Shown here: piece by piece, positions 871-8,837 of the stretch
Numbering within the stretch: position 1 is the first letter of the stretch
Layout of the letters: every line of letters begins with the position of its first letter
From: a virus
IMG/VR virus record: IMGVR_UViG_3300035701_000337
Span: 1-21,686 of that record
Strand: one strand, 5' to 3'
DNA length: 21,686 bases
Translations under genes and position numbers: made by a program
The notes under the pieces: model-generated
What the model was told of the DNA's origin: nothing
The model's database searches: none
The model's input: only the letters and a program-made list of their open reading frames with translations

Positions 871-1067
871 GAGGCTTGCTCGTTGTTTTGGGGCCAGGGC
901 TTGGCGAGCTCGGGGCGGTGTTCTCTTCGTGCGGTCGGAGTGATGAGAGCCACCAAGCCGCAGGCGGGGCAGGCCGCGCGATCGAGGGGGGCGGTCTCGG
1001 CGCGGCGGATGATGAGGATTTCGGCGCGGCACGAGCAGGTCCAGAGGTAGGTGGCGTCGTAGGTCAT
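867..1067 (-). CDS. Small zinc-ribbon-like protein, 66 aa
   Basis: The protein begins MTYDATYLWTCSCRAEILII and later carries CPAC (residues about 33-36). The CxC plus CxxC pairs are spaced as in a small treble-clef or zinc-ribbon knuckle, so zinc binding is likely. The ATG at 1067 overlaps the TGA of the methyltransferase gene and its own TGA overlaps the next ATG, so it is sandwiched in the coupled operon. The C-terminal third is polar and probably unstructured. A role in nucleic-acid or protein binding is plausible; the actual function is unknown. Confidence 0.7.
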   Translation of the reverse strand: MTYDATYLWTCSCRAEILIIRRAETAPLDRAACPACGLVALITPTARREHRPELAKPWPQNNEQAS

Positions 1068-1927
1068 GCGGGCCTCGCTGAGGCTTCGGCCACGATGGCT
1101 TGCAGGATGGCGCGGGCCAAGTCTATTTGTACGGCCTGCGCGACCATCTTCCATGCGCGCGTCTGCGAACCAACGAAGAGGTAGGTGGACGGGAAGCCTT
1201 GGAGGTCCGCTGCCTCTTCGAAGCGCAACTGGCGTTCGCGGCCGTCCGCCATCTCGACCAGGAAGCCGCGCGAATGGCGACCACCGAAGTCAGTGATCGT
1301 GGGAGAAGGAAGCGCCGCGGGAATGACCCGTTTGCAGCCTGAGGTATACCACTGGTGGCGTGTCCTCTTCGTGGCGTGGAGGATGGCTGGCGTGGTGATG
1401 TAGGGGCCTGGCTGGAGGTAATCGGCGAGAACCTTTCGAGGCGAAACTACGGGGGGCGACGGAAGGGGAAAGTGGCCGACGAAGATCCGCTTGCGGTCCT
1501 GGCCGCTGTAGTGGCGGGCATTCAGCACGGTGTACGGGGTGAAGATCGGCAGGTGCTTGCGCATGCCGATGACGTTTTCGATTGCCCACCAAGTGGGGTC
1601 GATGTCGAGAAGAGCTTCTAGCATTCCGTCCAGCAGGGCGTGCCACCGGGCCATCGCATCGTCGGTGGGTTTCCTGCCGTTGCGGGCCGTGGAAATCTGC
1701 TCGCAGGGGATGGCGCCGAGTACGAGATCGATTCCACGCAGGCGCGCGTAATCGAGGCGGGTCACATCGGCGCACACGATGGGGACCTCGGGGTGATTCA
1801 GTTTGACGGTCAGGCAGCAGTCTTGTGCCCAATCGACGGCGAGCCGGAACTTGATGGGCAATCCGCGAGCTGCCTCGATCCAGCCACCGGCGCCACAACA
1901 GAGATCTATCGCGCGTAGCGGACTCAT
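1064..1927 (-). CDS. Orphan C5-cytosine DNA methyltransferase
   Basis: It transfers a methyl group from S-adenosylmethionine to C5 of cytosine in DNA. The canonical motifs are in order: motif I DLCCGAGGW (residues 8-16), motif IV with catalytic Cys75 in AIPCEQIS, motif VI ENV (117-119), motif VIII QDRKR (143-147), a variable target-recognition stretch (about 170-230), motif IX with EAADLQGFP (238-246) and a degenerate motif X near 260-275. At 287 residues it is short for the family but complete, typical of phage enzymes. The ATG at 1927 gives an ATGA overlap with the upstream gene; an in-frame ATG at 1951 is less likely. No endonuclease gene lies nearby, so the likely job is protecting phage DNA or regulating phage or host genes. 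The target sequence cannot be read from the protein. Confidence 0.92.
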   Translation of the reverse strand: MSPLRAIDLCCGAGGWIEAARGLPIKFRLAVDWAQDCCLTVKLNHPEVPIVCADVTRLDYARLRGIDLVLGAIPCEQISTARNGRKPTDDAMARWHALLDGMLEALLDIDPTWWAIENVIGMRKHLPIFTPYTVLNARHYSGQDRKRIFVGHFPLPSPPVVSPRKVLADYLQPGPYITTPAILHATKRTRHQWYTSGCKRVIPAALPSPTITDFGGRHSRGFLVEMADGRERQLRFEEAADLQGFPSTYLFVGSQTRAWKMVAQAVQIDLARAILQAIVAEASARPA

Positions 1928-2052
1928 CCGGTCACCCGGGCATTCGCGCACTCGGCGCAGAGGACCACGGTGTCGAGTACCAGGCCGTGCGGGTCGGCGA
2001 CACAGATCTGTATGGCGCCGGGCTGTCCGCAGTCGCAGGGGTCGAGCGGCAT
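1924..2052 (-). CDS. Tiny cysteine-pair (zinc-binding-like) protein, 42 aa
   Basis: This ORF is short but well supported. It starts MPLDPCDCGQPGAIQ and has CxC (residues 6-8), then Cys17, then CAEC (32-35), giving two Cys pairs about 24 residues apart, as in a minimal zinc ribbon. Its ATG overlaps the upstream TGA by one base (TGATG) and its TGA overlaps the methyltransferase ATG (ATGA), so it bridges two genes that would otherwise be separated. The layout resembles the other Cys-pair protein just after the methyltransferase, so the enzyme is flanked by two small metal-binding candidates. Function unknown. Confidence 0.65.
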   Translation of the reverse strand: MPLDPCDCGQPGAIQICVADPHGLVLDTVVLCAECANARVTG

Positions 2053-2614: not shown

Positions 2615-2827
2615 TTACCTCAGCGCGGGAAATCCGGACAGGAAAGAACGGATCTCCGGCGTCTCGTGTGGTTCGATGGGGGCAGCGATCGGCGGCGCGC
2701 TTGCCTCGCCTTGCCGCAACGCTCGCTTGCGGCGCACGATCTGAATAGCTTCGGTCAACTGCTGTAAGTCGTCGTCCGAGAGAGCAGGCAGCATCTCGCG
2801 GATGATGGTGAACTGGATGACGTTCAT
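2615..2827 (-). CDS. Small hypothetical protein, 70 aa
   Basis: The ATG (2825-2827) overlaps the TGA of the replication-like gene as ATGA, so its translation is probably coupled to the initiator. It begins MNVIQFTIIREMLPALSDDD, a compact helical segment with an acidic turn, followed by a basic helix (VRRKRALRQ) and a Pro/Ala-rich tail ending near ETPEIRSFL. The position directly after the initiator is where many temperate phages encode a helicase loader or accessory replication factor, but this protein is much too short for a loader ATPase and shows no Walker motif. Confidence 0.6.
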   Translation of the reverse strand: MNVIQFTIIREMLPALSDDDLQQLTEAIQIVRRKRALRQGEASAPPIAAPIEPHETPEIRSFLSGFPALR

Positions 2828-4317
2828 GAGGCGCCTCCGGAGGCGGCGCGGGGCGGGGCGGAATCCTCGCACGCCTGCTCGCTCTGTGCGGGCTTGTTGC
2901 GGGCTTCGTACATCTGGAAGGCGACCTCGACGACTCGGCGGTCGAAGCGGCGCGGATTGCCAACGATGTCATTGAGGCGTCCGTACTTGCCGGCCTCGAT
3001 GTCGGCGCGGATGGCCTGATCGGCGGCGATCTTCGCGTCCCACGCTTCTTGGTGGAAGAGCAGGGGCACGGCCGTGAGGAAGAAACCTACGGGGTTGGTT
3101 TTGGCGAGGGGGCCCTTCTGGCGGACAGCTTCGGCGACCAGGACGGCGGTGCAGGCCGGCATCTTCTCGCGGCAGGCGAGGATCAGACGTTGGGCGGCGG
3201 CGTAGTCGGGGTCAGAGAAGGCCCGCATGGCGTCGAGGACGATGTGCACTTCGACGGGGGAGAGAGGGGCGGCGGCCGTAGCGGCAGGGGAGTGTGGTGG
3301 AGGGTGACTCGGAGGTTTCATCTCTGGCACTTCTCCAGGGCCGGTTGAATTTACGGCCGCCGAAAGGGGGCCCGCAGCCGCGCGGCTGGCGTGGACGCGG
3401 CCTGGTCGAGGAGCGGCGCCAGCCGGCGACTCGGGAACTGCAAGCTCGGGGGCGGGAAACAGCGTGGGCTGAAGAGGGGGGGCCAGCTCGGGGCGGCCGG
3501 GGAGGGGTTCGGCTGAGTCGAGGGCTTTGAGGAGGAACTCGCGGAAGTTGGCGTTGACCTGGTCGAGGCCGGCCTTGTAGGCGGCCAGGGCCTGTTGGAT
3601 GTCTTCGCGCGGCGCGAGTTCGGCGGCGCGGGCGAGGAGTTTGGAGAGGTTATTTTTGCGCATAAAGGCGAACAAAAGCTGGATGGGTCCCTCAGAGGAT
3701 TGCGCGGCATCCTGGTAGCCATTTTTGGCTACCAGAAGTTCGAGGTCTTTGGCCGGCTTGGGCCTGGCGTGCAGATAGACGAGGTTCCTGCCGCTGTGGA
3801 GCTGCTTGCGTCGGGCAGGGGGCAGGTCGGTGAGCGCGATTCCGAGCTTCTGATCGAGGATTTCGTTCAGCGAGAGGCCGCGGAGTTGCGCGAGCGGGCG
3901 GAGGGCGAACACGCGGATGAGAAGGCCATCGTCCTCCATCTCTGCCAATGCGCGGCGCATGTGCTGGCGGGAAATCCGGATCGCCAAGCGGGTTTCGTCG
4001 TCGATGGCGACAGCCGATTCCTTGCAGGCCGCGGCTGTGGCGCGGTCGAGCATGGCGATGATCTCGTGGGCGAGGAGAGGCGAGATCTCGGGCTTGGCAC
4101 CCGGGTACCGGCGCATGATGACGGCCAGGTCCGACTCGTAGCCGAAGGTCTGGAGCATCAGGCAGGCCCAGATCCGGGCCTTGAGTGGCCAGTTGGGGCG
4201 CATTAACGCCTTGATGGTCAGCTTCGAAGCGTAGGTCCACTCGCCGGGCTTGAGGCCGAGTTTGGCCAAAAAGGGCGGTACCCATGGCGCTTTCAAGGGA
4301 GCTGGTGCAACGGCCAT
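2824..4317 (-). CDS. Phage replication initiator-like protein (winged helix)
   Basis: A 497-residue protein that heads the leftward early operon. ATG at 4317 is preferred over the ATG at 4377 because GAGG sits about five bases upstream. The N-terminal part (about 20-140) is helical. Residues about 108-137, with ISRQHMRRALAEMEDDGLLI, have the look of a helix-turn-helix and wing of the kind used by lambda O and other phage initiators. A Pro/Ala-rich linker (about 265-350) follows, then a second helical domain (about 355-470). This DNA-binding domain, linker and interaction domain layout matches O/DnaD-type initiators that recruit a helicase, though no family signature is decisive. Function by analogy is to bind the phage origin and load host replication proteins. 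It carries a perfect inverted repeat (3712-3735) that could be that origin. A transcription regulator is the alternative. Confidence 0.6.
   Translation of the reverse strand: MAVAPAPLKAPWVPPFLAKLGLKPGEWTYASKLTIKALMRPNWPLKARIWACLMLQTFGYESDLAVIMRRYPGAKPEISPLLAHEIIAMLDRATAAACKESAVAIDDETRLAIRISRQHMRRALAEMEDDGLLIRVFALRPLAQLRGLSLNEILDQKLGIALTDLPPARRKQLHSGRNLVYLHARPKPAKDLELLVAKNGYQDAAQSSEGPIQLLFAFMRKNNLSKLLARAAELAPREDIQQALAAYKAGLDQVNANFREFLLKALDSAEPLPGRPELAPPLQPTLFPAPELAVPESPAGAAPRPGRVHASRAAAGPLSAAVNSTGPGEVPEMKPPSHPPPHSPAATAAAPLSPVEVHIVLDAMRAFSDPDYAAAQRLILACREKMPACTAVLVAEAVRQKGPLAKTNPVGFFLTAVPLLFHQEAWDAKIAADQAIRADIEAGKYGRLNDIVGNPRRFDRRVVEVAFQMYEARNKPAQSEQACEDSAPPRAASGGAS
3712..3735. repeat. Perfect 10-bp inverted repeat inside the replication gene
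   Basis: CTGGTAGCCA (3712-3721), four T, then TGGCTACCAG (3726-3735). The stem is perfect although it lies in coding sequence, around residues VAKNGYQ of the initiator-like protein. Lambda-type phages carry their origin inside the initiator gene, so this is an origin or binding-site candidate. The core GGTAGCCA also occurs in dyads at 5590-5644. A structured mRNA element is the alternative. Confidence 0.5.
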
Positions 4318-4412
4318 AAGACCTCGCTGTGCTGATAATCTAACGTATACGACCCTGGGGACCTCCGAAGAGAGCATTGTAGTCGGAGGGGGTTCCTGCC
4401 GATGTTGGAGGG
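4318..4412. promoter_or_regulatory. Divergent intergenic region with inverted repeat
   Basis: This is the only spacer between the leftward early operon and the rightward integrase, so promoters for both should lie here or just upstream. It holds a perfect 7-bp inverted repeat, CCTCCGA (4362-4368) and TCGGAGG (4383-4389), and the 8-bp palindrome CGTATACG (4344-4351) in a locally AT-rich patch. No clean -35/-10 pair could be read on either strand. The dyads are reasonable operator candidates. Confidence 0.45.
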
Positions 4413-5363
4413 GTGGACTCGACCTACACCTGCGGGACGCCGGATGTGGGGCGGCTGCTGGCGAGCGTGCCGCGGTCGGAGGCGCGGTACGCAGCCAACA
4501 CGCGGTACGCGTACGGGGTGGACTGGCGATGCTTCAGCGGATGGTGCGCACGCGCGGGGCGAGGGGCGGCGCCGGCCGAGACGGACACCGTGCTGGGGTA
4601 CCTCGCGGATCTGCTGGGTGGCGGTCGGAAGATTTCGACGGCGAGGCGGCATCTCACTTCGATCGGCGCGGAGCACCGGCGGCAGGGGCTGGCGGTGGGG
4701 TGGCACGCGCGGGCCTGGGCGGCGCTCGATGCCGCACAGCGCGAGAGGGGCGAGCAGGCGGTCGGGAAGAGGGCCATCACGATCTCCGAGTTGCGGCGGA
4801 TGATCGGGGCATGGGACCAAGGGCGACCGATCGACGCGCGGAATCGGGCAGTCCTGGCGCTGGGGTTCGCGTCGGCATTGCGGAGGAGCAGCCTGGCGAC
4901 GCTCGATCTGGCAGACGTGCGGTTCGAGGCAGAGGGCGTCGTGTTGACGATCCACCGCGACAAGACTGACCAGCTCGGACAGGGGCGCTTGGTGGGGGTG
5001 GCGCGCGGGAAGCACCCACGGACCTGCCCCGTGCGATTGCTCGAACAGTGGATACAGGTCCGGGGGGCGGCGCGCGGGCCGTTGTTCCTGCCGGTCTGCG
5101 GAGGGCACGTTGAGCACCGACGGATGCGCGCACGCCAGGTGGCCGCGATTGTCAAGAGGTCGGTCGAGCGGATCGGTGGCGACCCGGCGTCCTATGGGGC
5201 ACACTCGTTGCGGAGCGGGTTCGTCACGGCGGCGGTCGAGAGCAACGTCAACGAGTTCCTGATCGCGGCTCAGACTGGGCACCGATCGCTGGCCACACTG
5301 CGGCGGTACTTCCGGCAGAGCAACCCGCTGCGGGGGAACGCCAGCGCGATGATCGGGCTGTGA
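4413..5363 (+). CDS. int: Tyrosine recombinase (phage integrase family)
   Basis: It catalyses site-specific recombination through a 3'-phosphotyrosine intermediate; here it probably integrates and excises the phage. The N-terminal region (about 12-110) is a SAM-like core-binding domain. The catalytic domain carries Arg157 in ALRRSSL, Lys184 in the beta-turn HRDKTDQ, His264-x-x-Arg267 in AHSLRSG, His290 in QTGHRS and the nucleophile Tyr299 in RRYF, a complete set. At 316 residues it matches compact integrases that lack a separate arm-binding domain. The start is uncertain: the GTG at 4413 sits directly after GGAGGG, unusually close, with an in-frame stop at 4380-4382; the GTG at 4446 is another option. 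It lies between the early operon and a structured intergenic stretch that may hold the attachment site. A XerC-like host recombinase is less likely given the phage context. Confidence 0.9.
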   Translation: MDSTYTCGTPDVGRLLASVPRSEARYAANTRYAYGVDWRCFSGWCARAGRGAAPAETDTVLGYLADLLGGGRKISTARRHLTSIGAEHRRQGLAVGWHARAWAALDAAQRERGEQAVGKRAITISELRRMIGAWDQGRPIDARNRAVLALGFASALRRSSLATLDLADVRFEAEGVVLTIHRDKTDQLGQGRLVGVARGKHPRTCPVRLLEQWIQVRGAARGPLFLPVCGGHVEHRRMRARQVAAIVKRSVERIGGDPASYGAHSLRSGFVTAAVESNVNEFLIAAQTGHRSLATLRRYFRQSNPLRGNASAMIGL

Positions 5364-5692: not shown

Positions 5693-5736
5693 TCGTCGTC
5701 GTCGGGTTTCTGTGGTGGGAAGAAGGACGACGACGA
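5693..5736 (-). terminator. 11-bp perfect hairpin downstream of the regulator gene
   Basis: TCGTCGTCGTC (5693-5703) and GACGACGACGA (5726-5736) are exact reverse complements separated by 22 bases. The hairpin lies 12 bases after the stop of the leftward regulator gene, so it may end that transcript. It is followed on that strand only by a weak pyrimidine run (TGCTCTTTCCC), so intrinsic termination is not certain. The rest of 5645-5747 shows nothing recognisable. Confidence 0.4.
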
Positions 5737-5747
5737 ATTTCTGAGGA

Positions 5748-6032
5748 TCAGGCCACGAGCATGGCTTGGCAGTACGGGCAACGAGCAGCGCAACCAGGAG
5801 AGTGGAGACCGGGCTGACAGTCGGCGCCAGCGCGAAGAGAGTGCGGCTGCTGCATGACGTACAGAATCAACTGGCGGGCGCCGCTGACCTCGGCCTTGGC
5901 ACACAGGGAAGCAAGATGTTTGTGGACGGTGGAGGGGAGGATTCCCAGTTCGCCGGCCATTGCTTTGGGGCTACGTCCTTGGCAGAGCATTCGGAGGATG
6001 GACCGATCACGATGGGTGAATTTGGGCGCCAC
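5748..6032 (-). CDS. Short LuxR/GerE-type HTH regulator with Cys-rich tail
   Basis: A 94-residue DNA-binding protein. Residues about 6-65, beginning THRDRSILRMLCQGRSPKAM and continuing through GILPSTVHKHLASLCAKAEV, match the four-helix LuxR/GerE fold: the 'T-R-x-x-x-IL-x-x-L-x-x-G' opening, then the recognition helix STVHKHLASLCAKAEV. There is no receiver or autoinducer domain. The C-terminus carries CAARCPYC, a possible zinc ribbon, instead of the usual end. The start is GTG at 6032 with no Shine-Dalgarno; TAAAAT lies eight bases upstream, so the mRNA may be leaderless. Its promoter overlaps two identical dyads, suggesting autoregulation. Facing the late operon, it could be the phage's lysogeny or late-gene regulator (inference). 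Confidence 0.75.
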   Translation of the reverse strand: MAPKFTHRDRSILRMLCQGRSPKAMAGELGILPSTVHKHLASLCAKAEVSGARQLILYVMQQPHSLRAGADCQPGLHSPGCAARCPYCQAMLVA

Positions 6033-6040
6033 TGATGAGT

Positions 6041-6077
6041 ATTTTACGCAAAAATGCGCTTTATGCGCAAAAATGCG
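6041..6077. promoter_or_regulatory. Tandem dyad operator with regulator promoter
   Basis: CGCAAAAATGCG occurs twice, at 6047-6058 and 6066-6077. Each copy is CGCA-AAAA-TGCG and they start 19 bp apart, near two helical turns. On the minus strand TAAAAT (6041-6046, five of six -10 positions) is preceded after 18 bases by TTGCGC (6065-6070), so the dyads cover the spacer and -35 of the regulator promoter. They also lie about 50-80 bp upstream of the first late gene and could control both directions. Confidence 0.65.
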
Positions 6078-6124
6078 ACTTTGAATCGTTTACTCAGGAA
6101 GGGCAGGGGGCGCATAGTTGAACC

Positions 6125-6493
6125 GTGAGCAGGGCCGGCGGGAAAGAAATCGTCGATGAATTCGGGCGATTGGAGGCTCAGGTTGCGCCTTTGAAACCAC
6201 TGATCGCCCGCAGAGAAGCCGTGCGAGCGATCATCCTGGGGTGGCACGCCGGGCTGTCGGGAGACGAAGGCGCGACTGAGGCCGGCAAAAGATGGAGAGT
6301 CCTCATCACGCCGCGGGATCAACAGCAGGTGATGACGCTCGCCGCGAAGAAGAAGTTGCTCAAGCTCTGGGGGCCGACTAAGTTCTTGGCGAGGTGCAGT
6401 GTGCCGATCAACGCGTTGCCGGGCGACGGATACAGCGTGCTGGAGCGCAGGGGTCCGCGACACTTGAGGGCGGTGCCGATCCTGCGGAAGTGA
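6125..6493 (+). CDS. Hypothetical protein, first gene of the rightward operon, 122 aa
   Basis: It starts at GTG 6125 (GTG AGC AGG GCC). Purine-rich GGAAGGGCAGGGGG lies some 10-25 bases upstream, too far for a good Shine-Dalgarno. The N-terminal half is helical (IVDEFGRLEAQVAPLKPLIA). The second half contains the basic stretch LAAKKKLLKLWGPTKFLARC and a Gly/Pro-rich end. I do not recognise a family. Being first after the dyad operator and upstream of packaging genes, it might be an early-late accessory protein. There is no signal peptide or membrane segment. Confidence 0.55.
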   Translation: MSRAGGKEIVDEFGRLEAQVAPLKPLIARREAVRAIILGWHAGLSGDEGATEAGKRWRVLITPRDQQQVMTLAAKKKLLKLWGPTKFLARCSVPINALPGDGYSVLERRGPRHLRAVPILRK

Positions 6494-6546
6494 GCCTGGC
6501 GGAGCGGGCTGAAAACTACCCCGGTCGTTGTAAGGCGAGGGGAACC

Positions 6547-7169: not shown

Positions 7170-7545
7170 GGCGCGGGCGTTCCTGGCGGCGTACCGGCGG
7201 ACGTGTAACATCACCTGGTCGGCCAAGGCAGTTGGCATCAGTGCGCGGCAGCATTACCGGTGGCTGGAGAAGTACTCGAAGTACAAGGAAGCTTTCCAGC
7301 GGGCCCAGGTGGAGGCGGCGGATTACCTGGAGAGCGTCGCGGTCAAGCGCGCTAGCGTCGGATGGCGAGAGCCGGTGTTTTACCAGGGCGGGAAATGCGG
7401 AAGCGTGAAGCGGTTCGACGGCGGGCTGATGCAGTTCCTGCTGCGCGGGGCGAAGCCGGAGAAGTACCGGCAGACGGCGGAAGTGACCGGGGCCGGCGGG
7501 GGGCCGATTCGGGCGACGCTCGAAGTAGTGTTTGTGGAGCCCTGA
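7138..7545 (+). CDS. terS: Terminase small subunit-like protein
   Basis: A 135-residue protein directly before the large terminase. In packaging phages the small subunit recognises the packaging site and regulates the ATPase. Residues about 20-52, with NITWSAKAVGISARQHYRWL, form a helix-turn-helix typical of terminase small subunits. The next segment (KYKEAFQRAQVEAADYLESV) is the expected oligomerisation helix, and the C-terminus is a short beta-rich tail ending EVVFVEP. I start at ATG 7138 (MARRRPSTAAKA); GTG 7111 in the same frame is an alternative that would overlap the upstream gene more. The stop TGA overlaps the likely start of the large subunit. Confidence 0.8.
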   Translation: MARRRPSTAAKARAFLAAYRRTCNITWSAKAVGISARQHYRWLEKYSKYKEAFQRAQVEAADYLESVAVKRASVGWREPVFYQGGKCGSVKRFDGGLMQFLLRGAKPEKYRQTAEVTGAGGGPIRATLEVVFVEP

Positions 7546-8837
7546 GGGCCGAGTTCCCGGCGAAGGTCCGGTTTCTGTTCGAGCCGCACGATTACAAGAT
7601 CCTGTTCGGCGGGCGCGGCGGGATCAAATCGTGGTCGATGGCGCGGGCGCTGCTGGTCATGGGAGCGCAGCATCAGCTCCGGTGGCTGTGCGCCAGGGAG
7701 ACTCAACAGTCGATTGCGGAGTCGGTCCACCAGTTGCTCGAGGATCAGATCGCGCGGCTGGGGCTGAGCGCGTTCTACCGGGTGGAACGGGCGCGGATTG
7801 TCGGGACGGTGGCGCACCAGGCCGGGATGTACGGCCGCAAGTTGGAGCGGCCGGGGTGCAGCGAGTTTGTCTTCGCCGGGCTGAAGCACAATGTCACCCA
7901 GATCAAGAGCTATGAGGCTCTCGATGGTGTGTGGGTGGAGGAAGCGGCCAACGTCTCGCGGAATTCGTGGGAAGTGGTGCTGCCGACGGTGCGCAAGGAA
8001 GGCAGCGAGATCTGGGTGTCGCTCAACCCGGAACTGGCGACCGACGACTCGTACCTGCGATGGGTGGTCAATCCGCCGGCCGGCGCGGTGGTGGTGAGGA
8101 CCAGCTACGCCGACAACAGGTGGCTGTCGGAGACCTCGCGCAGGAGGATCGAGGCGCTGCGGGTGAGCGACCCGGAGGCGTTCGAGCACATCTACGGGGG
8201 CGCGACCAAGGCGGCGCTGGCGGGGGCGATCTACGGGGCGGAGATGGCCCAGGCGGAGCAGGACGGGCGGATCACGCGGGTGGCGTACGATCCGACCAAG
8301 GCGGTCCACACCTTCTGGGACCTGGGCTACGGGGATCTGACGACGATCTGGTTCGTGCAGGTGTTCCCGTGGGAGTATCGGCTGATCGATTTCACCGAGG
8401 GGCGGGGGGAAGCGCTGGGTCATTACCTGAAGCTGCTCCAGGCGAAGGGCTACGTGTACGGCACGGACTATCTGCCACACGATGCCAAGGCGCACAGCCT
8501 GGGGACGGGGCGGTCAATCGAAGAGCTGATGCGGGAGGCCGGGCGCAAGGTGCAGATTGTCCCGCAGCTTTCGGTCACGGACGGGATCAACGCGGCGCGG
8601 ACCATTTTCCCGCAGTGCTGGTTCGACGCGGAGAAGTGCGCGGATGGGCTGCAATACCTGCGGCGGTACCGGTACGGCGAGATCCAGACGCTGGGGATGC
8701 CGACCAGGGAGCCGCTGCATGATGAGGCTTCGCACGCGGCGGACGCGTTCCGGTACCTGGCGGTGGGGATGAAGGCGCCGAAGAAAGAACCGCCGAAGAG
8801 GCCGCCGGTGTACCGGGGGGCGACGGCGTGGAGCTGA
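7542..8837 (+). CDS. terL: Terminase large subunit (packaging ATPase/nuclease)
   Basis: The motor that pumps DNA into the procapsid and cuts the concatemer. ATPase motifs: a deviant Walker A FGGRGGIKSWSMARAL (residues 22-37), Walker B with the catalytic Glu in DGVWVEEA (128-135), and the coupling motif SLNP (160-163). Nuclease domain: Asp260 in FWDLGYGD, Asp314 in PHDAKAHS, and DEASHAADAFRY (394-405). With the start at CTG 7542 the protein is 431 residues, the usual length. No ATG, GTG or TTG exists in frame between 7395 and the Walker A, and CTG overlaps the TGA of the small subunit as CTGA. The upstream part of the frame (7362-7541) overlaps the small subunit and has shadow composition. Confidence 0.93.
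   Translation: MRAEFPAKVRFLFEPHDYKILFGGRGGIKSWSMARALLVMGAQHQLRWLCARETQQSIAESVHQLLEDQIARLGLSAFYRVERARIVGTVAHQAGMYGRKLERPGCSEFVFAGLKHNVTQIKSYEALDGVWVEEAANVSRNSWEVVLPTVRKEGSEIWVSLNPELATDDSYLRWVVNPPAGAVVVRTSYADNRWLSETSRRRIEALRVSDPEAFEHIYGGATKAALAGAIYGAEMAQAEQDGRITRVAYDPTKAVHTFWDLGYGDLTTIWFVQVFPWEYRLIDFTEGRGEALGHYLKLLQAKGYVYGTDYLPHDAKAHSLGTGRSIEELMREAGRKVQIVPQLSVTDGINAARTIFPQCWFDAEKCADGLQYLRRYRYGEIQTLGMPTREPLHDEASHAADAFRYLAVGMKAPKKEPPKRPPVYRGATAWS

Follow-up and report, generated by a model that had tools for sequence, protein, structure and literature searches.

Most lysogeny switches studied use CI/XRE-type repressors. The zinc-binding Ogr/Delta proteins of P2 are small phage regulators that act as late activators. 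In Bacillus, GerE (PDB 1fse) is a single small stand-alone GerE-fold protein with no sensory domain. LuxR-type regulators are also carried by temperate phages, in which they influence lysis and lysogeny; besides VqmA-Phage, these include Aeromonas phage XRE-LuxR (PMC10432266) and the Phaeobacter prophage xre-luxR-luxI (PMC13345283), in both of which the LuxR-type regulator has a ligand-binding domain and is described as working with XRE or cI proteins.

The locus described here lies in IMG/VR virus record IMGVR_UViG_3300035701_000337, of which the whole stretch analysed, 21,686 nucleotides, is called the window. It resembles the lambdoid immunity region (CI/Cro, OR) in its nearby integrase, in an array of several putative operators flanked by predicted divergent promoters, and in a regulator and operators that co-diverge between phages with similar virions. 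It differs in having a GerE-type HTH with a putative zinc tail rather than CI, with no Cro-like partner found and no HTH_3 protein in the records examined. Like Bacillus GerE, the regulator is small and free of a sensory domain; unlike GerE, it is phage-borne, lies beside an integrase, and has an extra H-C-C-C tail and its own putative operator array. With the phage LuxR-type regulators it shares the HTH and, we infer, a role in the lysis/lysogeny choice of a temperate phage, but unlike the Aeromonas and Phaeobacter examples it consists of HTH and tail only, with no XRE/cI partner seen. P2 Ogr/Delta is comparable in its small size, its phage origin and its zinc site, which in the window's protein is a probable one, but its fold and zinc motif differ from those of the window's regulator, whose DNA-binding part is a GerE HTH.

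We think it fairly probable that two dyads next to this regulator are its operators, and that it is most likely the immunity repressor of a temperate, P22-like phage of Acidobacteria.

The regulator and the paired dyads of the window

The initial annotation had recognised a LuxR/GerE-type HTH in the regulator, and this identity is borne out (Table 1). Pfam GerE (PF00196) matches residues 5–58 with an E-value of 4.4e-10 and 39.5 bits, against a curated cut-off of 23.5, and an AlphaFold2 model (mean pLDDT 90) has the four-helix GerE fold. Foldseek places this model with LiaR (4wul, TMt 0.85) and GerE (1fse, TMt 0.85) at a probability of 1.00 and E-values of 0.003–0.05; the HTH domains of VraR and phage VqmA match in fold as well, matches were also seen at the sequence level, and the PHROG matches include 'sigma factor' families. 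The term LuxR applies to the HTH domain only, as the protein has neither an autoinducer nor a receiver domain. A quorum-sensing LuxR receptor was accordingly rejected, because in a protein of 94 aa with its HTH starting at residue 5 there is no N-terminal autoinducer-binding domain, as was a NarL/FixJ response regulator, because there is no receiver domain and the NCBIfam response-regulator matches span the HTH only and fall far below their cut-offs. A CI/Cro-type repressor was also rejected: the regulator is GerE, and no HTH_3 (PF01381) protein was found in G000, G001, G239, G240 and G241, five records of ~113 kb in total that are mostly fragments, outside which another repressor may exist. 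The C-terminal tail is probably zinc-binding, as judged from its ligand pattern: His-Cys-Cys-Cys recurs in 7 of the 8 lineages aligned. H77 and C88 do not vary in any of the 8, and L001 lacks one cysteine.

Table 1. Features of the regulator locus in the window (positions as in the window)
Feature	Position	Strand	Basis and remarks
Tyrosine integrase	4413..5363	plus	Pfam Phage_integrase 7.8e-16; convergent (tail to tail) with the regulator
Regulator, 94 aa, GerE/LuxR-type HTH (residues 5–58) and zinc-knuckle-like tail	5748..6032	minus	GTG start; Pfam GerE, AlphaFold2, Foldseek
C-terminal tail H77-x3-C81-x3-C85-x2-C88, putative zinc ligands	5769..5804	minus	C72 just before; GLH..(C)..C..C pattern in 8-lineage alignment
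Predicted -10 TAAAAT, regulator promoter	6041..6046	minus	Consensus scoring only; strongest regulator promoter signal
Proximal dyad, putative operator CGCA-AAAA-TGCG	6047..6058	.	Between the predicted -35 and -10 of the regulator's promoter; 19–20 bp arrays kept in G001, L049, L089
Distal dyad, putative operator CGCA-AAAA-TGCG	6066..6077	.	Overlap with the regulator promoter's predicted -35
Weak candidate -10 CATAGT, divergent operon	6113..6118	plus	Consensus scoring only; -35 TTTACT at 6089–6094, spacer 18
First gene of divergent operon	6125..6493	plus	GTG start; family without assigned function, members beside the regulator in L002, L028, L089
Terminase large subunit	7362..8837	plus	Pfam Terminase_3 7e-33; packaging/head run downstream of the divergent promoter region

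Between the start of the regulator (GTG 6032) and that of the divergent operon (GTG 6125), the 12-mer CGCAAAAATGCG, with arms CGCA and TGCG around AAAA, is present exactly twice, in DNA of 36% G+C (6035–6095) compared with 65% for the whole window. The two identical 12-bp dyads originally reported here are indeed exact copies, 19 bp apart from start to start and separated by a gap of 7 bp. A search of the 21,686-base contig, itself a fragment, returned no further exact copy, the next-best match having 2 mismatches. Many copies across the host genome, which the initial annotation had named as evidence against its reading, are not indicated by the genomes searched, those of the relatives' family: 61 of them hold 49 copies (~0.8 per genome). 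The operator pair in the form GCAAAAATGC-N9-GCAAAAATGC had no match in other phages among the viral_contigs searched.

None of 20,000 dinucleotide shuffles made from the 92-bp intergenic region produced two close, identical 12-mers with dyad arms; when the whole window was shuffled 300 times, such a repeat turned up 4 times. The same DNA can also be read in an alternative register, as the 14-mers TTTTTGCGCATAAA and TTTTTGCGTAAAAT, likewise 19 bp apart; the register is therefore not unique, and the real half-sites may extend beyond 12 bp.

A simple promoter scan gave nothing above its cut-off, and the promoters in Table 1 come from consensus scoring. The -10 box of the regulator lies 8 nt before its GTG and is paired with a poor -35; because of this short distance, and because no Shine-Dalgarno sequence was seen, the regulator mRNA is probably leaderless or nearly so. 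Measured from the predicted starts, the dyads lie at ~-37 and ~-18 of the regulator promoter and ~53 and 72 bp upstream of the divergent one, whose best -10 falls ~36 bp beyond the distal dyad. The earlier statement that the dyads cover the regulator's own promoter stands as an overlap with a likely promoter, one placed by consensus scoring alone; the interval first annotated, 6041–6077, also includes the likely -10 box (6046–6041, minus strand). The rightward operon that starts at GTG 6125 encodes the small and large terminase subunits followed by portal and coat proteins, both of P22 type. Its first gene had no Pfam, PHROG or PDB match.

Putative operator arrays and probable module exchange among relatives

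The first homologues came from two Bryobacterales MAGs and a single virus contig, and further relatives were gathered via the integrase, terminase and coat protein. A wider search of 399 genomes of the class returned the known match only, and a search of 237 genomes of the family returned 3. The host phylum appears to be Acidobacteria, since relatives sit in MAGs of that phylum. In the regulator-bearing relatives, the GerE gene beside the integrase is convergent with it, and a GerE regulator lies beside the integrase in all five lineages of the virion group with a record spanning the region (the window, G001, L049, L098 and L034/L097).

Within this virion group, terminase, portal and coat protein are 67–79% identical to those of the window in G001, L049, L098 and L034, the head and packaging proteins of G001 being 68–79% identical. 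The regulator, by comparison, is 45% identical in G001, 39% in L049 and 28% in L098, and is undetected by tblastn in L034. Conversely, L049 and L089 share 89% identity in the integrase and 82% in the regulator, with no detectable terminase similarity. Virion genes that are alike thus accompany diverged regulators, and L049 and L089 have their integrase and regulator in common but not their terminase. Integrase, regulator and operators therefore travel as a set and change in step, which is the pattern of an exchangeable immunity module.

The arrays themselves vary in sequence and little in spacing. At the same locus, G001 has four dyads, GGGCAAAATGCGC, GGGCAAAATGCCC, GGCTAAAATGCC and the inverted GGGCGTTTTGCTC, at 27989, 28008, 28028 and 28047 (spacing 19, 20 and 19), which are clustered only at the regulator locus in 30 kb, with one 2-mismatch match elsewhere, at 1032. 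L049 has TCCGGTTTCTGGA, TCCGATTTCCGGA and CCGTTTTCCGG, spaced 19 and 20 bp, with a different half-site, TCC...GGA. When L049 is aligned with L089, the dyads prove to be conserved, as does a -10-like box on each side, and the spacers differ; taken alone, L089 does not have 19 bp as its best repeat distance, and its support is the alignment to L049. The best repeat-dyad score of the window was reached by 0 of 200 mononucleotide shuffles, that of G001 by 0 of 200, that of L049 by 2 of 200 and that of L089 by 10 of 200. Three operator types were seen across the phages with arrays. In the aligned recognition helices, L049 and L089 both read TCHERI and share their operator type, whereas the window (TVHKHL) and L001 (TARTHI) differ from both and from each other, in the operators as well as in the helix. 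This comparison of relatives makes a strong case for the dyads as operators of the regulator.

No 19-bp array was found upstream of the regulator in L028, L031, L034, L042, L098 or prophage L002, the last of which has a single dyad, GGACTAAATAGTCC. The 19-bp array thus belongs to certain branches and does not accompany every regulator of this kind. Other motifs are present in the upstream regions that lack it, among them TACTTTCGTAC in L034 and L042.

The proposed switch and its alternatives

In the prophage state, neighbouring dyads would each hold a dimer of the regulator, at one dimer per ~19 bp. The bound dimers would govern the promoter of the regulator itself and silence the divergent packaging/head operon; the tyrosine integrase would belong to the same exchangeable module as regulator and operators. 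The sequences themselves show the dyads, the GerE fold and the arrangement of integrase, regulator and dyads, which is conserved and co-diverges among relatives; the binding, the zinc, the sign of regulation at either promoter and the role in lysogeny we infer. In the window, with the dyads at the positions given above relative to the predicted start, autorepression is favoured, the bound dyads blocking the regulator's own promoter. In L049 and L089, the predicted divergent promoter has one dyad between its -35 and -10, and the regulator promoter has another close to position -40, a geometry that would fit repression of the divergent promoter together with self-activation of the regulator. The initial annotation had proposed a complete lysogeny-type switch built on a LuxR/GerE HTH rather than a CI-like repressor. 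A lysogeny switch is still the best reading, and HTH_3 is missing from the five records; 'complete' says more than the sequence shows, as no Cro-like partner was recognised in the fragmentary records, several related lineages lack the 19-bp array, and it is the -10 of the regulator, not a convincing rightward promoter, that the array of the window adjoins. Bound there, the regulator might activate the divergent promoter or do nothing to it.

The main rival makes use of that same position. The regulator would bind the dyads as a mainly autorepressed activator of the divergent packaging/head operon, that is, a late-gene activator and not a lysogeny repressor. The dyads abut the regulator's -10 at an activator-like distance from the predicted divergent start, GerE-type proteins are often activators, 'sigma factor' families are among the PHROG matches, and L031, L039 and L098 have a second GerE-type gene inside the rightward operon. 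We nevertheless regard this as unlikely: the dyad that separates -35 from -10 in the conserved divergent promoter of L049 and L089 fits repression, and a mobile, fast-diverging pairing with an integrase suits an immunity gene better. That the array is instead a replication origin, bound by a replication protein in the manner of the lambda ori repeats, seems very unlikely. The direct repeats of the array, ~19 bp long, symmetric as dyads and set in AT-rich DNA (36% G+C), and the four copies of G001 do resemble iterons. But the arrays adjoin a regulator gene between divergent genes and travel with regulator and integrase between unrelated virions, and the sole replication-like candidate, a large leftward gene at 2824–4377, lies beyond the integrase and is without a G001 homologue.

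We give the least credence, a remote chance, to the dyads having nothing to do with the phage regulator, either as sites for a host regulator or as a leftward terminator hairpin (TGCGCATAAAGCGCA-TTTTT). Sites for a host regulator should stay constant in sequence between phages, yet there are three operator types. One terminator-like hairpin did score, on the minus strand at 6069–6055, but such hairpins arise at chance level (0.8 per shuffle) and, as judged by inspection, neither the G001 array nor that of L049 folds into this one; the terminator was rejected.

Returning to an operator array for an immunity repressor, a bolder form of this reading is possible and is put forward tentatively: a stand-alone GerE-type HTH with a zinc-knuckle tail may replace CI in this group of Acidobacteria phages, as a previously unrecognised repressor class. 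Integrase, regulator and the 19-bp comb of operators would then make up a single exchangeable heteroimmunity cassette, and the cysteine-rich tail might act in oligomerisation or as a redox- or metal-sensing induction device. No description of a stand-alone GerE-zinc phage repressor was found in the literature searched, whose partial coverage makes this weak evidence. If the reading is true, a GerE-type repressor with a putative zinc tail, no sensor domain and operator sets to match in several lineages would widen the kinds of protein known to silence prophages, and would offer a first way into the study of lysogeny in the Acidobacteria, a soil phylum that is abundant and difficult to culture. 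The natural series of regulator-operator pairs makes the recognition specificity of GerE directly testable.

Other elements at the locus and in relatives

Several further elements were observed. In the gap that separates the convergent genes, close behind the regulator's 3′ end, the window has an inverted repeat, TCGTCGTCGGGTTTCT / AGAAGGACGACGACGA (5696–5736), a possible terminator or attachment region, and its leftward gene cluster includes a C5-cytosine DNA methyltransferase (1064–1951, minus strand). The small-protein family heading the divergent operon, which in the window resembles a Mu Gam-like protein as judged by eye only, comprises window 6125–6493, L002:511–945, L028:892–1248 and L089:4433–4861; in L001, L034 and L049, a KTSC-domain gene occupies this head position. 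The second GerE-type HTH genes of the rightward operons lie at L031:3872–4339, L039:3156–3617 and L098:2794–3420 (plus strand), those of L031 and L098 having an N-terminal Cys-x2-Cys zinc-ribbon-like segment, and L089 encodes a sigma-70 region 2 protein (2927–3652, minus strand) in the operon divergent from the regulator. Finally, a 33-bp element, GCCTGGCGGAGCGGGCTGAAAACTACCCCGGTC, separates the first divergent gene from the one after it (window 6494–6526, plus strand) and recurs with 0–3 mismatches in L049, L001, L098 and L034/L097, where the surrounding proteins are only 56–75% identical; it is a candidate packaging site, promoter or RNA element.
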